The notes below the pieces were generated by a model. That model did no database searches, was not told where the DNA came from, and worked only from the letters and a program-made list of their open reading frames with translations. DNA of 64,000 bases, from the NCBI RefSeq assembly GCF_001029505.1, contig NZ_LEKH01000012.1, positions 1 through 64,000 on the forward strand. Reading direction: 5' to 3'. Positions within the stretch are counted from its first letter, which is position 1, and each line of letters begins with the position of its first letter. Below are positions 14,757 through 35,668 of this stretch, piece by piece. This DNA comes from Rubrobacter aplysinae. GTDB taxonomy: Bacteria; Actinomycetota; Rubrobacteria; Rubrobacterales; Rubrobacteraceae. The translations under genes were made by a program, and so were the position numbers.

Positions 14757-16628
14757 GTGGAACGGATGACGCCCAAAGGCCCAGAGACTCGACGGAGGCG
14801 GGCCGTGATGGCGGCTTTGTTCTTGGGCGGTGTCACGCTCGGATACGGGGCGGGCTCGGTCCACCGGTTTCTCGGTGCGAGGAGCCTGCATTACACGGCG
14901 CAACCAAGGGGCGACGAACCTTTCGCCAGTCTCGCCCTGAGCAAGCCAGGCACGATGTTCGTACTGGATGGCGGTCTCACCGTACGCCATGCCCTGCCCG
15001 CCGTGCAGGAGGTTCTGGGACACAGCCCCGGGCAGATGACCGGTCGCAAGCTTACTGATTACCTGCATCCGGCAGACATTGGTCGCTTTACGAGCGAGAG
15101 AGGAAAGATGACGGCGGAGGTGGTGGACTTTAGAATGCGCCACGCCGACGGTTCCTGGTGCGGATTGCAGGCTACCAGGGTCGTTCCCAGAGACGAGCCG
15201 GCCGGTGACGGAGGAACGTACCGCGTGCGCTTGCCAGAAGACCCCGGAGTACGGAATGCGCCGCCCCGTCCGGTGCTCTGGCGTGATCCACAGGATCCCG
15301 GAGATATTCTGGACGGCCGGGAGATTTTCGTGGACCGCATCGAGAGCGTCCTCGCCCACGATGACCGGCATGCCCGGCACCTCGAGAGCACGACCCTGAT
15401 ACTCCTCGGGATAGATACCTTTGAGGCGGTCGACGACGCTTTGGGGCTCGCCGTAGGCGACCAGATGCTTTACGTGGCCGGTATGCGGCTGCGGTCTTGT
15501 CTCAGGCCGGAAGATACCCTGGCCCGGGTCGGGCGCGGTGAGTTCGGGGTGCTCCCCGGTAAGGGTTTTGAGGTGGGTAGCGCAATCCGCCTCGCGGAGA
15601 GAATCTCGGAGAGCCTGAAAGAGCCTATACTGCTCGGCGGACGAATGCTCCACATCACGGCCAGCGTAGGGATAGTTTCCAGCGAGGCGACGGGTCTGGG
15701 ATCCGGCGAAGACTTTATGGCTGCCGCAGCCTCCGCCGTACGGGGAGCCCGCGAAAACGGCGCCGGCTACGAGATATTCGGCGGGTACGCCTCCGAAGCG
15801 GATCTCGAACGTCTCAAGCTGGAAGGCGACCTGTGGCGGGCGGCCGAGCGCGGCCAGCTTGCACTCAGCTATCAGCCGCAGGTGGACCTGGAGAGCGGGG
15901 AAGTCGTCGGGGTAGAGGCACTGTTGCGCTGGGAGTATCCCCGGCGCGGTACCGTAACCCCGGAGGAGTTCATAGATCTGGTGGAGGACACGGGTCTGAT
16001 CGTACCAATCGGGACCTGGGCCCTGAGAGAGGCTTGCCGGAGCGCGGTACGCTGGAGGCAGAATACCGTGTTCGGCAGGGCGCTTATCAGCGTCAACCTG
16101 TCTGCCAGGCAATTTCAGCAACCCGGTCTGGCCGAGGAAGTATCGTCTATCATGGAAGAGACGGGGATAGAGCCCGAGAGGCTCGTGCTCGAAATCACCG
16201 AGAGCCTGCTGCTCGACGACACGCCATACATCGCGGAGAGCCTGCAGAAGATCAAGGGCCTCGGTGTGAGGCTGGCGCTCGACGATTTTGGCACCGGCTA
16301 CTCCTCGCTCTCTTACCTGCAGAGAATCCCCGTGGACTACCTCAAGATAGATCAGTCTTTCGTCTCCGGGCTAGAAGATGGGGGAGAAGACGCCCCGGTA
16401 TTCCTGTCTGCTATCGTGGAGGTAGCCAGGACCCTTGGTATAAAAACCATAGCCGAAGGCCTGGAGACAGAGGCTCAGGTCGAACGGCTCCGGGAGCTAC
16501 GCTGCGACATGGGCCAGGGATACTATTTCGCAAGGCCCATGCCGGAGGAGGAGGCGTACGGGCTCGTAGGGAGTTCGCTCCACGACCAGGGCCCCGAAAT
16601 ATCCCCCGAGGACTGGAGAACAGAGTGA
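14757..16628 (+). CDS. PAS-GGDEF-EAL protein, probable c-di-GMP phosphodiesterase
   Basis: A 623-residue signalling protein. An N-terminal hydrophobic segment (about residues 17-35) anchors it. A PAS-like domain (about 60-150) precedes a GGDEF domain (about 190-350) and a C-terminal EAL domain (about 360-605). The cyclase signature is degenerate, GRGEF at residues 259-263, so diguanylate cyclase activity is unlikely. The EAL domain is intact: EALLRW (Glu387), SVNLSARQ, EITES, DDFGTGYSSLSYL, KIDQSFV, AEGLETEAQ and GQGYYFARP. I infer hydrolysis of c-di-GMP to pGpG, with the GGDEF possibly acting as a GTP sensor. GTG start with GGTGAGGGG upstream. Confidence 0.9.
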   Translation: MERMTPKGPETRRRRAVMAALFLGGVTLGYGAGSVHRFLGARSLHYTAQPRGDEPFASLALSKPGTMFVLDGGLTVRHALPAVQEVLGHSPGQMTGRKLTDYLHPADIGRFTSERGKMTAEVVDFRMRHADGSWCGLQATRVVPRDEPAGDGGTYRVRLPEDPGVRNAPPRPVLWRDPQDPGDILDGREIFVDRIESVLAHDDRHARHLESTTLILLGIDTFEAVDDALGLAVGDQMLYVAGMRLRSCLRPEDTLARVGRGEFGVLPGKGFEVGSAIRLAERISESLKEPILLGGRMLHITASVGIVSSEATGLGSGEDFMAAAASAVRGARENGAGYEIFGGYASEADLERLKLEGDLWRAAERGQLALSYQPQVDLESGEVVGVEALLRWEYPRRGTVTPEEFIDLVEDTGLIVPIGTWALREACRSAVRWRQNTVFGRALISVNLSARQFQQPGLAEEVSSIMEETGIEPERLVLEITESLLLDDTPYIAESLQKIKGLGVRLALDDFGTGYSSLSYLQRIPVDYLKIDQSFVSGLEDGGEDAPVFLSAIVEVARTLGIKTIAEGLETEAQVERLRELRCDMGQGYYFARPMPEEEAYGLVGSSLHDQGPEISPEDWRTE

Positions 16629-29796: not shown

Positions 29797-31299
29797 CTAC
29801 ATTTTGTGGTTCTTTAGCACCGCCCTTTTTGCGCTGTTGGTGAGGTAGTACGATCCAGAATCTGGTCCACTACGCTTGTATTTGGCGAGCTTCTGGTATC
29901 CGTCCGACCATTTGTAGCGGACGCCGTCTCCCTCTGAGCCCCTCCTACCGGGGTACCAGTAACGGTTGCGGTACCCGCCATTATTCGCTGACTTTCTATA
30001 GATATTGCCGCCTCTCACGGCTTTAAACCATGCAGCGGCCTTGCCGTCTCTCTGGATGACGGTATTTCTATTTAGCCTGACGTTGTTCACGTGATCGTAA
30101 GAACCGCGATCTGCGTTAACCACCACGATGCCATTACGATTGCGCGCGAGCACGTTGCCGATAGCTCTTACATTATATGAAGCTGAAAGGCCGATGCCCG
30201 ATCCAGCGTTTGGATCCCCCCCGTACCTGAGACCATTATTGTAGACTTTGTTGCCCCTGATAAGAACATTCTTGGTGATCTCAACCCGTATACCCTGCCG
30301 GGCGTGGTGATGGACCCGATTACCAACGATCCTCACCCGTTGCCTGCCTTCCTGGATGACGTCCGTCCAAATGCCGAAGTGGCCGTTGTGGTGTACGTTG
30401 TTGCGCACGATACGGGCGTACCGGGCCTGACTTATCTTCATCGCTCCCGCTTCCCAACCTGGGTCGAAACCTTTGATGCTGTTGTAGACTATCCTGTTAT
30501 TGGCTAGGATTACACTCGCCTCGTTCGAGGCGAAGCCCAACTGACCACCGTGGTGTATACGGTTCCCCGCGGCGACCATCCCGGGCCCTTTTGAGAGCGC
30601 GAGATTGACGGTGTGAGCGTAGGAGAGGTTGTTGTTGCGAACCTGCCAGTAGTTCTTGCGATCGTTCTTTATTCCCGCCCCTGTCGAGTGACGCATGGTG
30701 AAGCCCTTTATGGTCACACGGGGAGCTCCACCGAAAATCCACCTGTTGCGCAACGTGACCTCCACGGTCTTGTTACGCGGGTTATTAGCGAGTAGTATGC
30801 GCCGCTGCCCATCGAGGGCAAACTCGCCTGCCTCCGGCCTGTCGTTGGTGAGATCTAGCTTTCTACCGTAGATGTAGACCTGCTCGGGCTTGCGGCAGCT
30901 GTTCGTGCCCGACTTGCAGCGCCAGCGACTCTCGACGCGCTGCCTAGGGTAGCTCTTTTCCGAGCGCCAGAGCCCGCTACTCGTCCTACGCCATCTCTTC
31001 CACAGCTCGCTGCCGCGGATCTCGGTTCCGCGACCCCCCCTGAGAGTAATGGGTTTGTTGATGGTAACCTTCTCGCGAAAGATGCATCTGTCCGGGGTAT
31101 TTACTACGTCTCCTGGAGATGCGGCGTTGACCTTTTTCTGCAAAGAAACCTTGCAATCCGGCTTGAGAGCCTCCGCCCGATCAGGGTAAGCCAACGCCAG
31201 TACAACGGCCGCAATTACGCCGATAGCGCATGATAGTACAAGGCGCGGAGAAGCCCTCTTCAGGCTTCTCGGATAAGCGGGTATCGAACTATTGAACAT
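29797..31299 (-). CDS. Secreted right-handed beta-helix protein under a c-di-GMP riboswitch
   Basis: A 500-residue protein from ATG 31299, chosen because GGAGGGG stands 3 to 4 bases upstream and the N-terminus then forms a normal signal peptide (hydrophobic core IGVIAAVVLALAY). The body is a parallel beta-helix with repeated short turns (IRGNKVYNNG, IVGNRVHHHARQGIRVEIT, IGIGLSASYN-like units), as in pectate lyases, alginate epimerases and phage-type depolymerases. A conserved N-terminal region PGDVVNTPDRCIFREKVTI feeds into the helix. I infer a secreted polysaccharide-modifying or structural protein. It is a paralogue of the gene at 31.5-33.0 kb. Confidence 0.83.
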   Translation of the reverse strand: MFNSSIPAYPRSLKRASPRLVLSCAIGVIAAVVLALAYPDRAEALKPDCKVSLQKKVNAASPGDVVNTPDRCIFREKVTINKPITLRGGRGTEIRGSELWKRWRRTSSGLWRSEKSYPRQRVESRWRCKSGTNSCRKPEQVYIYGRKLDLTNDRPEAGEFALDGQRRILLANNPRNKTVEVTLRNRWIFGGAPRVTIKGFTMRHSTGAGIKNDRKNYWQVRNNNLSYAHTVNLALSKGPGMVAAGNRIHHGGQLGFASNEASVILANNRIVYNSIKGFDPGWEAGAMKISQARYARIVRNNVHHNGHFGIWTDVIQEGRQRVRIVGNRVHHHARQGIRVEITKNVLIRGNKVYNNGLRYGGDPNAGSGIGLSASYNVRAIGNVLARNRNGIVVVNADRGSYDHVNNVRLNRNTVIQRDGKAAAWFKAVRGGNIYRKSANNGGYRNRYWYPGRRGSEGDGVRYKWSDGYQKLAKYKRSGPDSGSYYLTNSAKRAVLKNHKM

Positions 31300-31339
31300 G
31301 CGTCCCCTCCAGACTGTCTGGGTGGCAGGGACGCAAACG
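31300..31339 (-). promoter_or_regulatory. Expression platform sequestering the ribosome site
   Basis: On the minus strand, GCGTCCC (31328-31334) is complementary to GGGACGC (31300-31306). The latter overlaps the GGAGGGG ribosome site (31304-31310) just before ATG 31299. A short hairpin (CCAGAC-A-GTCTGG) lies in the loop. The same upstream segment, as TTTGCGTCCC (31328-31337), is perfectly complementary to GGGACGCAAA of the aptamer (31402-31411). The two pairings exclude each other, giving a readable translational switch. Confidence 0.7.
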
Positions 31340-31352
31340 CGTAAGAAATCTC

Positions 31353-31437
31353 GCGGCAACCAGGCTACCTCGTCTCTGTTAGAGCTTCGAGGTCCTTAGG
31401 CTTTGCGTCCCCGCCTCACGGCGAGTTTGCCTTTATC
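31353..31437 (-). ncRNA. c-di-GMP-I (GEMM-I) riboswitch aptamer
   Basis: Read on the minus strand, the 5' leader of the beta-helix gene contains the conserved GEMM-I elements in order. GGCAAAC comes first. It is followed by a 6-bp stem closed by a GUGA (GNRA) tetraloop (CTCGCC-GTGA-GGCGGG), then GGACGCAAAGCC. A second stem (CCTCG...CGAGG) then leads to GGTAGCC-T-GGTTGCC, and TTGCC closes with the initial GGCAA. These match the class I aptamer for bis-(3'-5')-cyclic di-GMP in sequence and fold. It lies about 50 bases upstream of the start codon. Confidence 0.9.
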
Positions 31438-31534
31438 GCTCTTATAGAATCAATTATCGGTAGGGCGTAGGGGAAACTTTAGCTGAAATCTGTTGATTCA
31501 GAAAAATAACCGAGCTCGGCTCGTAAGAGCTTTT

Positions 31535-33040
31535 TTACCGTTCCCGAGTAATACTATTCTCTTTCAGCACGGCGTCTTTCTCTTTATCCGAGAGTTGGCT
31601 ACCATTATATTCGGCGGGGGTTTCTTCGTAGCCGGAAAGCCTCTCATAGTAGCGTTCCCACTTGTAGCGGCTCTCGCCGCTGGGCGGGTCCGGGTAGTAG
31701 TAGCGATTATCCTGACCTCCGTTGCCCGAGGCTATGTTGAAAATGTCGCCGCTGGGGTACGCTTTCATCCAGGCCACTGCCAGACCCTTCTCCTGTATCA
31801 CGTCGTTTGAGGATAGGACCACGTTGGTTACCGTGTGGAAGCCTTTCTCCCGGTTCGCGTTGACCACCACGATACCGCTGTTGTTGTATGCGAGCGTATT
31901 GTCCGAGACCTGTGAATCGTAGGTGCCGGAAAGGGTGATGCCTGCGCCGCTCGGATCGTCCGGCGGGTAACCCATGCCGTTGTCGTAGACGACATTGCCG
32001 GTAACCTCAGCGTTCTTTGAGATCTCCACCCGGATACCCTGTCTCGGGTTGCCGTGAACCCGGTTGCCACGGATCATTATCTTTTGTGGGCCGGTCGTAG
32101 CCACGTCGGTCCAGATACCGATGTCCTTGTTCCCGAAGACTTCGTTTTTCTCTATGAGCACGTCCGTTGCGGCGCTGATCTTCATTCCCCCGGCTTCCCA
32201 GCCGGTTTTGAAGGAGGCAGTGTTGTTATGGTGGATTCGATTGTCGCGGATTTTTATCTGTGCTTTGTATGATGAAAGGCCCATCTGTCCAGCGTGATGC
32301 AAGTTGTTGTTCTCGATGACCATTCCTGGTCCTTGTGAGAGAGTTACGTTCGTTGTGTGGGCGTAAGAGAGGTCGTTGCCTATAACGCGCCAGTTGGCCT
32401 GGAGGTTGTTCTTGATCCCTGTTCCGGCGCTGTGGCGCATGCTAAAGCCTCGGATGGTTACGTTTTCCGAACGTCCCTCTATCCACTTGTCGCGGACGCT
32501 AACCTCCACGGTCTTTCCCGCCGGATTCTCGCCGAGCAGCACCCTGCGATCCCCATCGAGGGTAAATTCTCCCTCCCCGGGTCCGAGCCGGACCTGCTCC
32601 AGCGGCTCGCCATCGAGATATACCTGCTCCGGCTGCTTGCACCGTTGGCCGGTGCCTTCCTCGCACCGCCAACGGCCCTCGACCCGCAGCTCGGGATAGG
32701 TCTTCTCCGAGCGCCACACGCCGCCGTCAGGCTGCCAGCCCTTCCAGACGTCGGAGCCCCGGATCTCCGCTCCTTCTTCGGCGACCAGCGTTATTGGTTT
32801 GTCTACTACTACCGTTTCCCGATATACCCGGTCTCCGGGCACTCTCACCGTATCCCCGGGCTCTGCCTGATCTATGAGCTGTTTTATTTGTGCTTTGGCG
32901 ACGGAGCTCTCAGGGCCATCGGCGGAATCTTCTGCTCCTATCAGACTCTCGCCCGAGACATCCCCCCATAACCCAAGAACCGTAGCTACGAGGACGAATG
33001 TCAGGAGAAGACCCGCTGGAATCAATATCTTCTTAGGCAT
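31535..33040 (-). CDS. Secreted right-handed beta-helix protein, paralogue
   Basis: A 501-residue protein with an N-terminal signal or anchor (ILIPAGLLLTFVLVATVLGLW) and the same architecture as the gene downstream. It has the PGDTVRVPGDRVYRETVVVDKPITL entry motif (written here in part), then beta-helix turns (IRDNRIHHN, IRGNRVHGNPRQGIRVEIS, VSDNTLAYNNSGIVVVN) and a shared C-terminal YKWxxxYxxL segment. The two are ancient duplicates. Unlike its neighbour I see no c-di-GMP aptamer in its 186-base leader. A role in remodelling extracellular polysaccharide is inferred. Start at ATG 33040 after AGGGTG. Confidence 0.82.
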   Translation of the reverse strand: MPKKILIPAGLLLTFVLVATVLGLWGDVSGESLIGAEDSADGPESSVAKAQIKQLIDQAEPGDTVRVPGDRVYRETVVVDKPITLVAEEGAEIRGSDVWKGWQPDGGVWRSEKTYPELRVEGRWRCEEGTGQRCKQPEQVYLDGEPLEQVRLGPGEGEFTLDGDRRVLLGENPAGKTVEVSVRDKWIEGRSENVTIRGFSMRHSAGTGIKNNLQANWRVIGNDLSYAHTTNVTLSQGPGMVIENNNLHHAGQMGLSSYKAQIKIRDNRIHHNNTASFKTGWEAGGMKISAATDVLIEKNEVFGNKDIGIWTDVATTGPQKIMIRGNRVHGNPRQGIRVEISKNAEVTGNVVYDNGMGYPPDDPSGAGITLSGTYDSQVSDNTLAYNNSGIVVVNANREKGFHTVTNVVLSSNDVIQEKGLAVAWMKAYPSGDIFNIASGNGGQDNRYYYPDPPSGESRYKWERYYERLSGYEETPAEYNGSQLSDKEKDAVLKENSITRER

Positions 33041-33226: not shown

Positions 33227-35668
33227 TTACTGTCGTTCGTCGTTGTTACCGGGTCCTCCGTTAAGCAGGTCGTTGCCCGACCCGCCTACCAGCAGGTCGT
33301 CCCCGTCTCCGCCATAGAGCTCGTCATTACCTCCGTTACCGTAAAGCTTGTCGTTTCCAGGACCGCCATAGAGTTTGTCTGCTCCGGCTCTGCCCTGGAG
33401 CTCGTCGTTGCCGCCGCGACCATAGATGGTGTCATTTCCGGTGTAGCCACAGATCACGTCGTCACCTGCAGTGCCCTCGATCGTGTCGTCTCCGCTAGTG
33501 CCTATTATCGTACAACCGGCTCCGTTGGAGACGCCATTACCGGAGAGACCGACCTCTACTGCGGGGTTGCTTCCGCTATGGTTCACCACGAGCGTCGCTT
33601 CTTTTGCTCCGACCGACTCCGGGCGGAACTCAACCTGCACGGTGGCCTGCTCGCCGGGGGCGATGGTGCCATCACCAGGCAGCGTAGCCTTGAAGTCTCC
33701 CTTGTCCGCACCCTGGATTGCAATGTCCCCCACGGTTATCGCCGAGTTTCCGGTGTTCTTTAGGGCGAACTCGTCTGTCTTAGAGTTAAACCCAAGGCCC
33801 TTATTACCAAAGTCCAGGGCTTGAGAGTCGGCGACGAGGTTCGCGTCGAGGCTTTTGATGTCTATGTAGTTGATCTTGGTGTTCTGGCCGCCGACGGGGT
33901 CCACGGTCAGGCGCTGATCCGTGACCTCGACCGTTCTGGTGGCGTTAAAGAACCTCTCGTTGTCCGTGGGGGTGGCGCCGTCTATGGTAGCTTCGCCCTC
34001 GACGTTTAGCTGGTAGACAGCGTCCGTGAAGCCTGCGTCTCCGGCGCTTACCGTAACCCTGTACTCGCCGTTTGGCACCAGTATCTCCCAGGCGCCTTCG
34101 TCGCTCTTTTGCATGTGCATCAGGGTGTCGAGGCGCTGGTCGGGGCTAGTGTCCCGGTCGCGGCCGTCGCCTATCAGCGAGATCCGGTTATCTGTCCCGG
34201 GCTCAACCCAGCCGTAGTAGAGTCCCTGTCCCTGGTTCTCACCGTCCCGAGAGCCGAACTTCTCGCCGAAGTCCTTGACGTAGCCCTCGGGGACCGGGGC
34301 CTCCCCGGTCTGGAAGTTGACCTTGACCTCGCCTACGGGCTCGGGGGCCGGAATCGGCTCGGGAGGCTGGTTGACCGTAAACCTGGCGAGGCTCCTCTGC
34401 TCGACGCCGGAGACCGAGTAGAACCTGCCACCCACCCAAGCGTAGTTTCCAGGGGTCTGTATGGTGTGAACCGTGTGCCCGTTCCACTGATCCTGGTTGA
34501 AAAGTTCCATCTTCGGGATCCAGTCACAGTACGGCTGACCGTTCTGCGGATTCAAGGAGATCAGGCCCCTAACAGCCTCACCGCAGTTGGTCTGCGTAAG
34601 CCTGACGGTACCGAAGTGTCCGCCGGCGAACAGCCTGGAGCCATCCTGAGAGAAAGCGAGGGCGTACGGGTCTCCTACGGTATTGAAGGACCAGTCCTGC
34701 GCGGCCTGGTTACCACTGTCGAGCCGGAAGGACTTGACGTAGTTGGAGCCTCTGTCTCCAAAACCCCCGTACAGGCGGTTGGAGGTAGCCAGGAGGACCC
34801 AGCCGGTCTGGGGCTCATCTCCCCGCAGCAAATTCTTCGGGACGTACCAGGGGCTCAACTCTCCGCTGGCAGAGTCAAAGCGCGCCACTACTTTGCGCTC
34901 GCTGAAATTCTCGTCGGTAGAACCTATAACGTTGTCGAAGCTTCCGGTTACGAAGATCGTTTGCGCATCAACGGCAGGCTCCAGAGCCCGTACGACTCCC
35001 CTGGTCCTAGGCTTCCACTGCGGATTGAGATCTCGGCTGGGGAGGTCGAAGGCGGCGAGGTTACTCCTCAGGCTGCCGTCTATCCTCTGGAACTGACCTC
35101 CGGCGTAGAGCTTGCCGTTGCTGACCTCAAGAGCCCGGACGATAACGGTAATGTCGAGGTTCCCATCATCAACCACTGGTGCGAAAGAGGTCAACGAGCC
35201 ATTTATCGCGTTTAGCTCTGCCAAGTTCTGCCTTGGCTGACCATTGACTGATGAGAAGTTGCCGCCAACGAAAACGCTATTGCCCTCTACTGCGAGAGAG
35301 TAGACATGTGCCTCACCACCGCTGGCCTGCGGGTTCCAGCTCTGGATGGCGGCGCCGCTCTGTACATCTATGGCGGCGAGTCCGTTAGCGGCGAAGCTCT
35401 GCCCCCCTGTTCCTGGAGCTTGCTGCCAAACCTTGTTGAAATTGCCCCCGATGTAGAGGGTTTGTCCGTCCTCGGAGAGAGCAGAAGTTTCGACCCGCCC
35501 ACCGGTTACGTGCCAGGTTCCCTCGTCCGGCGTCTCTTCGAGGGCTAGAGCAGTGGAAGGAAAACCGAGGTACAACGCGATTGCGGCGATCAGAGCGGCG
35601 AACGTTATTATGAGACGCCCTACTCTGAATACTCCCCCTGAAACCGAAATACGCAAAACGGTTTCCAT
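33227..35668 (-). CDS. Large secreted protein: propeller repeats, malectin-like, choice-of-anchor and RTX repeats
   Basis: An 813-residue exported protein (signal peptide about 1-43). Residues about 45-425 carry delta-60/beta-propeller type repeats ([20 protein letters not shown], then [19 protein letters not shown]). About 440-610 resemble a malectin-like carbohydrate-binding domain. About 612-715 are an Ig-like choice-of-anchor D/Hydin-type domain ([35 protein letters not shown]). The end is a calcium-binding RTX block with GGxGxD nonapeptides ([20 protein letters not shown], then [18 protein letters not shown]). No catalytic motif is evident. I infer a calcium-stabilised surface or matrix protein that binds the exopolysaccharide. 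RTX repeats are usually linked to type I secretion, which is not visible here. Confidence 0.85.

Follow-up and report, generated by a model that had tools for sequence, protein, structure and literature searches.

A WhiG-type promoter and a c-di-GMP-I riboswitch before a beta-helix protein gene of Rubrobacter aplysinae: a candidate two-stage c-di-GMP gate

Results

The beta-helix gene, its leader and its neighbors

The window (the whole 64,000-nucleotide stretch of Rubrobacter aplysinae DNA analyzed here) carries on its minus strand a gene for a beta-helix protein, preceded by a WhiG-type promoter, a c-di-GMP-I aptamer, and an expression platform consisting of the 51 bases between the aptamer and the start codon. 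The features needed below are:

14757-16628 (+): protein with PAS, degenerate GGDEF (GRGEF) and intact EAL domains, by domain and motif reading; not physically linked to the riboswitch
29797-31299 (-): regulated gene, encoding a 500-aa right-handed beta-helix protein with an N-terminal hydrophobic segment (PF13229, E 3.2e-23; AlphaFold model)
31299-31310 (-): ribosome site GGAGGGGACGC with the first base of the start codon; computed opening costs indicate that UGCGUCCC hides them when the aptamer is bound
31309-31321 (-): small inner hairpin CCAGA-CAG-UCUGG, predicted for the free and the bound state alike and covering the first two bases of GGAGG (folded structures)
31324-31337 (-): anti-P2 strand UUUGCGUCCCUGCC (pairing and folding), part of which, UGCGUCCC (31335-31328), doubles as the anti-ribosome-site strand
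31351-31440 (-): c-di-GMP-I riboswitch aptamer (RF03167, RF01051, ligand-position census)
31402-31415 (-): P2 3' strand and joining segment of the aptamer, GGCGGGGACGCAAA, the target of the anti-P2 strand (14/14 complement to the linker)
31441-31449 (-): zone in which transcription is predicted to start, a few bases ahead of the aptamer, placed by the usual -10-to-start spacing
31454-31481 (-): WhiG/sigma-28-type promoter TAAAGTTTCCCCTACGCCCTACCGATAA, an exact match to TAAAG-N16-CCGATAA
31505-31523 (-): terminator-like hairpin ending the transcript of the upstream paralog (terminator scan)
31535-33040 (-): upstream beta-helix paralog, 47-49% identical

The product of 29797-31299 had been called a beta-helix protein in a sequence-only reading of this DNA, and PF13229 and the AlphaFold model (pLDDT 83) both give it the right-handed beta-helix fold of polysaccharide lyases and C5-epimerases. 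Structures matching the model include the xylosidase XylC, mannuronan C5-epimerases, polysaccharide lyases and, lower in the ranking, the Vibrio cholerae matrix lyase RbmB; these matches come from many different enzyme families, with 8-17% identity, and sequence profiles hit mannuronan C5-epimerases weakly (E 6e-4 to 0.01). The gene lies in an exopolysaccharide locus with a priming sugar transferase, glycosyltransferases, a WecG-type transferase and Wzy-like proteins. The earlier idea of a matrix enzyme is supported by both the resemblance to polysaccharide enzymes and this setting; judging from the modeled fold, the product is probably a secreted beta-helix polysaccharide enzyme, and it could plausibly trim or remodel the cell's own exopolysaccharide, the substrate we infer. 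The upstream paralog has neither an aptamer nor a WhiG-type promoter in the 300 bases before it, where both were sought. Adjoining the beta-helix genes is a gene (33227-35668, minus strand) for a large protein with beta-propeller-like DUF5122, Ig-like and RTX calcium-binding repeats. The gene at 14757-16628, previously suggested to degrade c-di-GMP, retains its EAL motifs beside the degenerate GGDEF, and its product is a probable c-di-GMP phosphodiesterase.

The aptamer and its ligand

Among Rfam covariance models, c-di-GMP-I-GGC (RF03167) is the best for the window aptamer (63.8 bits, E 9.6e-13, cut-off 59) and the sole RNA family scoring above cut-off across the window; the c-di-GMP-I model (RF01051) gives 61.0 bits, against a cut-off of 35, at 31440-31351 (-). 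The sequence-only reading had assigned the leader to the GEMM-I class and proposed a covariance search with that model; all the elements it quoted are present, the scores are far over cut-off, and the span it gave, 31300-31437, takes in aptamer and platform together. The ligand-contacting bases are intact (G20 = 31431, A47 = 31404, C92 = 31356, numbered by alignment to V. cholerae Vc2), and a census of 114 aligned aptamers of the class finds A47 in 113, G20 in 112 and C92 in 110. A47 is presumably the base stacked between the two guanines of the ligand in the V. cholerae aptamer. It is here that the window sequence, GGGACGC-A-AAG, differs from the RF03167 consensus, GGGACGC-G-AAG (GGGACGCGAAG), whose G at this position we take to be the source of the family name and is seen in none of the 114 class aptamers. 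The Weinberg papers of 2017 are said to have named the c-di-GMP-I variants.

It might be argued that the ligand is another cyclic dinucleotide, either that of the c-di-GMP-I-GGC variant or 3',3'-cGAMP, since c-di-GMP-I-GGC is the top Rfam model and the window aptamer shares its overall fold and sequence and exceeds its gathering cut-off. We give this very little credence: the aptamer has the canonical A where the model consensus has G47, its position 20 is G rather than the A expected for a 3',3'-cGAMP (GEMM-Ib) riboswitch, and both bases are nearly invariant in the class census. Both ligands were rejected for the window aptamer on A47 and G20, and because A47, G20 and C92 are all canonical we treat the window aptamer as an ordinary c-di-GMP-I aptamer rather than a GGC variant. 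RF03167 outscores the c-di-GMP-I model on many canonical A47 aptamers of the class, and automatic annotation by best score will therefore mislabel them. Two class aptamers, L019 (G027:C10:845-921) and L020 (G028:C4:35295-35371), both upstream of a GH26-like TAT-secreted protein, read AAAGAGC and so have A at position 20, as is characteristic of cGAMP riboswitches, unlike the aptamer of the homologous GH26-like gene in G026 and G001, which keeps G20; together these form a natural test pair for ligand specificity.

A WhiG-type promoter before the aptamer

The sequence-only reading overlooked the WhiG-type promoter, and with this promoter the locus takes on a different meaning. Its -35 element is TAAA (31481-31478) and its -10 element ACCGATAA (31461-31454), matching 11 of 12 consensus bases at spacing 16 (TAAA-N15-17-GCCGATAA); the consensus for WhiG of Rubrobacter radiotolerans is -35 TAAA, -10 GCCGATAA (PMC8325347). 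A sigma-70 promoter for the gene was rejected, as a scan of 31250-31620 for sigma-70-type promoters was empty.

TAAAG-N16-CCGATAA occurs in 5 exact copies in the 3.19 Mb genome, the reversed-pattern control in none. Two of the five lie 13 and ~29 bases before the only two c-di-GMP-I aptamers of the genome; the other three precede a pseudopilin gene pair, a golvesin-C/NlpC-P60 secreted protein, and a 1563-aa PAS-GGDEF-EAL protein. The last of these (L201, G000:C3:161246 onward) is a multi-PAS protein with intact GGDEF and EALLR motifs, and if WhiG-driven it might feed back on the c-di-GMP signal. The second aptamer with a WhiG-type promoter (L110, G000:C8:56603-56676) stands before a secreted subtilase and has U instead of C at position 92; this may alter its specificity, and its ligand is therefore less certain.

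The coupling extends across the class. Outside genus g10, a WhiG-type promoter lies within 70 bases of 38 of the 54 class aptamers (0.36 expected from shuffles), control stretches 120 bases further upstream have it in 0 of 52 cases, and the spacing is 16 in 35 of 39 cases. The promoter as a chance match is rejected by these shuffles and control stretches together with the genome counts. Genes linked to riboswitches in the class, as grouped by sequence clustering and Pfam, include 19 subtilases, 12 GGDEF-EAL or related signaling proteins and 10 GH16 proteins, as well as proteins of the GH26-like and beta-helix types; g10 adds a cluster that resembles sigma factors, as judged from sequence. The targets of aptamer leaders appear to be mostly secreted hydrolases. 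A beta-helix relative in G026 (L169, G026:C9:233-1847) has a 12/12 WhiG-type promoter and no aptamer, a natural one-lock version. In another family of the phylum, a type IV pilin gene is preceded by a WhiG-type promoter and a c-di-GMP-I aptamer (L193, G115; 61.5 bits), and a further lineage outside the class (L192) likewise has a WhiG-type promoter followed by a c-di-GMP-I aptamer; the coupling is therefore not confined to Rubrobacteria.

Genus g10 (G017-G025) has up to 18 c-di-GMP-I riboswitches per genome, whose upstream sequences resemble TATAAT or GTTT-N-GGGTA promoters and whose targets include GGDEF-EAL and sigma-factor-like proteins. A WhiG-type promoter is found at 1 of 59 g10 aptamers, exact WhiG-type promoters being almost absent from these genomes, and the two controls are therefore separable. 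A covariance-model search found no c-di-GMP-I matches in the well-assembled genomes of genera g7 and g8. If R. radiotolerans and Rubrobacter xylanophilus belong to g7/g8, this would explain why the link went unnoticed; the word riboswitch is absent from the R. radiotolerans study (PMC8325347).

WhiG and RsiG

One protein of the genome (G000:C10) scores above the FliA/WhiG family cut-off, and its best PDB match is chain A of 7lq4, labeled WhiG. A motif search (E-AEV-S-YR-R-RVL-Q-GRI-D) found RsiG as a 128-aa protein at G000:C19:41136-41519, which hits the RsiG chains in PDB entries 7lq2, 7lq3 and 7lq4 with E ~1e-14; 7lq4 thus holds both the WhiG chain and the RsiG chain matched here. RsiG is found in 34 of the 40 class genomes. 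In R. radiotolerans, c-di-GMP-dependent RsiG-WhiG has been demonstrated, and the WhiG targets are pilus and DGC/PDE genes (PMC8325347). The rsiG gene of R. radiotolerans has also been expressed in Streptomyces venezuelae.

A simpler account would make this an ordinary c-di-GMP-I riboswitch gene with a single c-di-GMP input, its promoter being read by another sigma factor or escaping c-di-GMP control. Promoter use is here predicted from sequence, and the riboswitch genes of g10 do without a WhiG-type promoter; against this, the genome has its one FliA/WhiG-family protein over the cut-off and an RsiG with intact motif, and the three exact sites away from aptamers include gene types mapped for WhiG in R. 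radiotolerans. We regard a single input as improbable, and favor control of the promoter by WhiG and RsiG.

Expression platform and folding

Two alternative pairings of the linker had been noted before, 10/10 with the aptamer and 7/7 with the ribosome site, and both were right but understated. i) UUUGCGUCCCUGCC (31337-31324) pairs with GGCGGGGACGCAAA (31415-31402) at 14 of 14 positions, one of them G-U; among 500 dinucleotide-shuffled linkers there was no helix as stable as this anti-P2 helix (-28.4 kcal/mol, RNAduplex), and 5000 linker shuffles gave no run of 14 contiguous pairs. ii) UGCGUCCC (31335-31328) pairs with GGGACGCA (31306-31299) at 8 of 8 positions plus one U-G pair, a helix of 8-9 bp that takes in the ribosome site's final base and the first base of the start codon; this codon, ATG, is at 31299-31297 and GGAGG at 31310-31306.

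When the bound state is represented by holding the aptamer, the computed cost of opening the ribosome site in the full leader rises from 4.8 kcal/mol free to 9.5 bound for GGAGG, and from 3.3 to 10.9 for AGGGG, which favors the OFF direction proposed by the sequence-only reading. In an elongation series the aptamer fold costs ~2-5 kcal/mol up to 108 bases past the aptamer 5' end and ~15 kcal/mol at base 117, when the invading strand has emerged. The unliganded full-length fold favors the anti-P2 helix by ~12 kcal/mol, and by up to 16 during elongation, so that switching would need ligand to be bound within ~20 nt of transcription. The leader sequence and a terminator scan reveal no U-run terminator 3' of the ribosome-site hairpin, and control is therefore likely to be translational and termination unlikely; transcription termination as the switch mode was rejected for want of a U-run and because the terminator that was found belongs to the upstream gene. 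The window leader is probably a kinetic translational OFF switch, in the direction to which computed folding points.

Conservation of the two pairings in relatives, which had been proposed as a test, is uneven. The beta-helix ortholog in G027 and G028 (~36-40% identical) keeps both the aptamer and a WhiG-type promoter (10/12); its linker forms only 7 bp with P2 (p ~0.1) and its ribosome-site opening energy is 9.1 in both states, with no predicted access switch, so that the pairings are weak or absent there. They do recur before another gene, in G001:C33: there UGCGUUCCUCC covers the ribosome site by pairing with GGAGGAACGCA and can also form 9 bp with the aptamer, and a C-to-U change in the linker has its G-to-A counterpart in the ribosome-site strand. 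A weaker form of the design is seen in G027:C10 and G029:2228270, which have long anti-P2 complements and computed opening energies that are not raised in the bound state. In 48 of 111 class leaders the ribosome site directly follows P1, an arrangement whose direction is not readable by folding; as folding is indecisive for these direct-type leaders, we claim no one switch direction for the whole class.

These P1-adjacent leaders, which could act in either direction, bear on the possibility that the promoter is as described and the riboswitch an ON switch, so that expression would need both active WhiG (low c-di-GMP) and an occupied aptamer. The result would be a band-pass, firing only at intermediate c-di-GMP or transiently. 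Several P1-adjacent leaders fold slightly more open when bound, and the GGDEF-EAL protein that WhiG would also drive is a possible source of intermediate c-di-GMP; in the window leader, however, all opening energies are higher when bound, and the 14-bp anti-P2 helix would have no other evident purpose. We consider an ON switch unlikely, and keep to the OFF switch in what follows.

Discussion

We think it reasonably likely that the leader is a two-stage c-di-GMP gate, with RsiG-WhiG acting at initiation and a c-di-GMP-I OFF riboswitch at translation. The parts of the gate (aptamer, promoter, WhiG, RsiG and pairings) are read from sequence, and promoter use in vivo, ligand binding and the direction of the switch, like the substrate of the enzyme, are what we infer. 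In the first stage WhiG would read the promoter, and at high c-di-GMP would be held by the anti-sigma factor RsiG. In the second, the RNA would begin at the edge of the aptamer; if c-di-GMP were bound before the anti-P2 strand emerged, P2 would be kept and the anti-P2 strand would cover the ribosome site and start codon, turning translation off, whereas without ligand the anti-P2 strand would invade P2 over 14 bp, leaving the ribosome site open for the beta-helix enzyme to be made. Both stages would act in the same direction and the secreted matrix enzyme would therefore be made only at low c-di-GMP; as c-di-GMP rose, leaky transcripts would be silenced at translation. If the OFF model is true, mutation of UUUGCGUCCC should give constant expression and compensatory changes should bring control back. 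If the aptamer binds much more tightly than RsiG-WhiG, the two gates would open at different c-di-GMP levels.

Whether secreted hydrolases of the WhiG regulon (subtilases, GH16, GH26-like and beta-helix) are under such a double c-di-GMP lock throughout the class, with a WhiG-driven GGDEF-EAL protein as reset, is a proposal on which we are evenly divided; if true, a drop in c-di-GMP would produce a sharp, self-limiting burst of pili and matrix enzymes.

Three known systems invite comparison. i) The R. radiotolerans RsiG-(c-di-GMP)-WhiG system (PMC8325347) shares with ours the sigma factor, the motif of the anti-sigma factor, the promoter consensus and the kinds of target (pili, DGC/PDE); what differs is that, in this genome and in related genera, a c-di-GMP-I aptamer and a gene for a secreted hydrolase stand downstream of many WhiG-type promoters. 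ii) The V. cholerae Vc2 riboswitch before tfoY has the aptamer class and ligand positions in common with ours, and according to PMC7371385, and to the title of Inuzuka 2018 among its references, the ligand-bound aptamer masks the ribosome site and lowers translation. tfoY is also controlled by c-di-GMP at transcription, through VpsR promoters that yield transcripts without the riboswitch and whose transcription c-di-GMP raises (PMC7371385); here, in contrast, the sequence suggests one transcript passing both gates, both acting in the same direction. iii) Cd1, before the flgB-sigD operon of Clostridioides difficile (PMC5386303), is likewise a c-di-GMP-I OFF riboswitch tied to a sigma-28-family regulon, but there the RNA is made from a sigma-A promoter and, by termination, sets how much sigma factor is produced, whereas here the sigma factor is proposed to make the riboswitch RNA.

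Each layer is already known; their coupling on one transcript appears to be new, and a literature search found no report of an RsiG-WhiG promoter and a c-di-GMP-I riboswitch on one transcript. Placing more than one receptor for a single second messenger on one gene is termed "sustained sensing" by ref. 43 of PMC7371385, and why bacteria stack receptors in this way is an open question. V. cholerae tfoY is the one stacked case we found, its layers being on different transcripts and partly opposing (PMC7371385). In the R. aplysinae leader, two sensors, each characterized independently, lie within ~190 bases on a single transcription unit and seem to act in concert. Dozens of natural variants of this arrangement exist, some of them in genomes that lack one layer, so that the value of each layer is testable. 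With it, secreted hydrolases would join pili in the WhiG regulon of Rubrobacter, and it offers a hint of what is under c-di-GMP control in these bacteria, which have no flagella.
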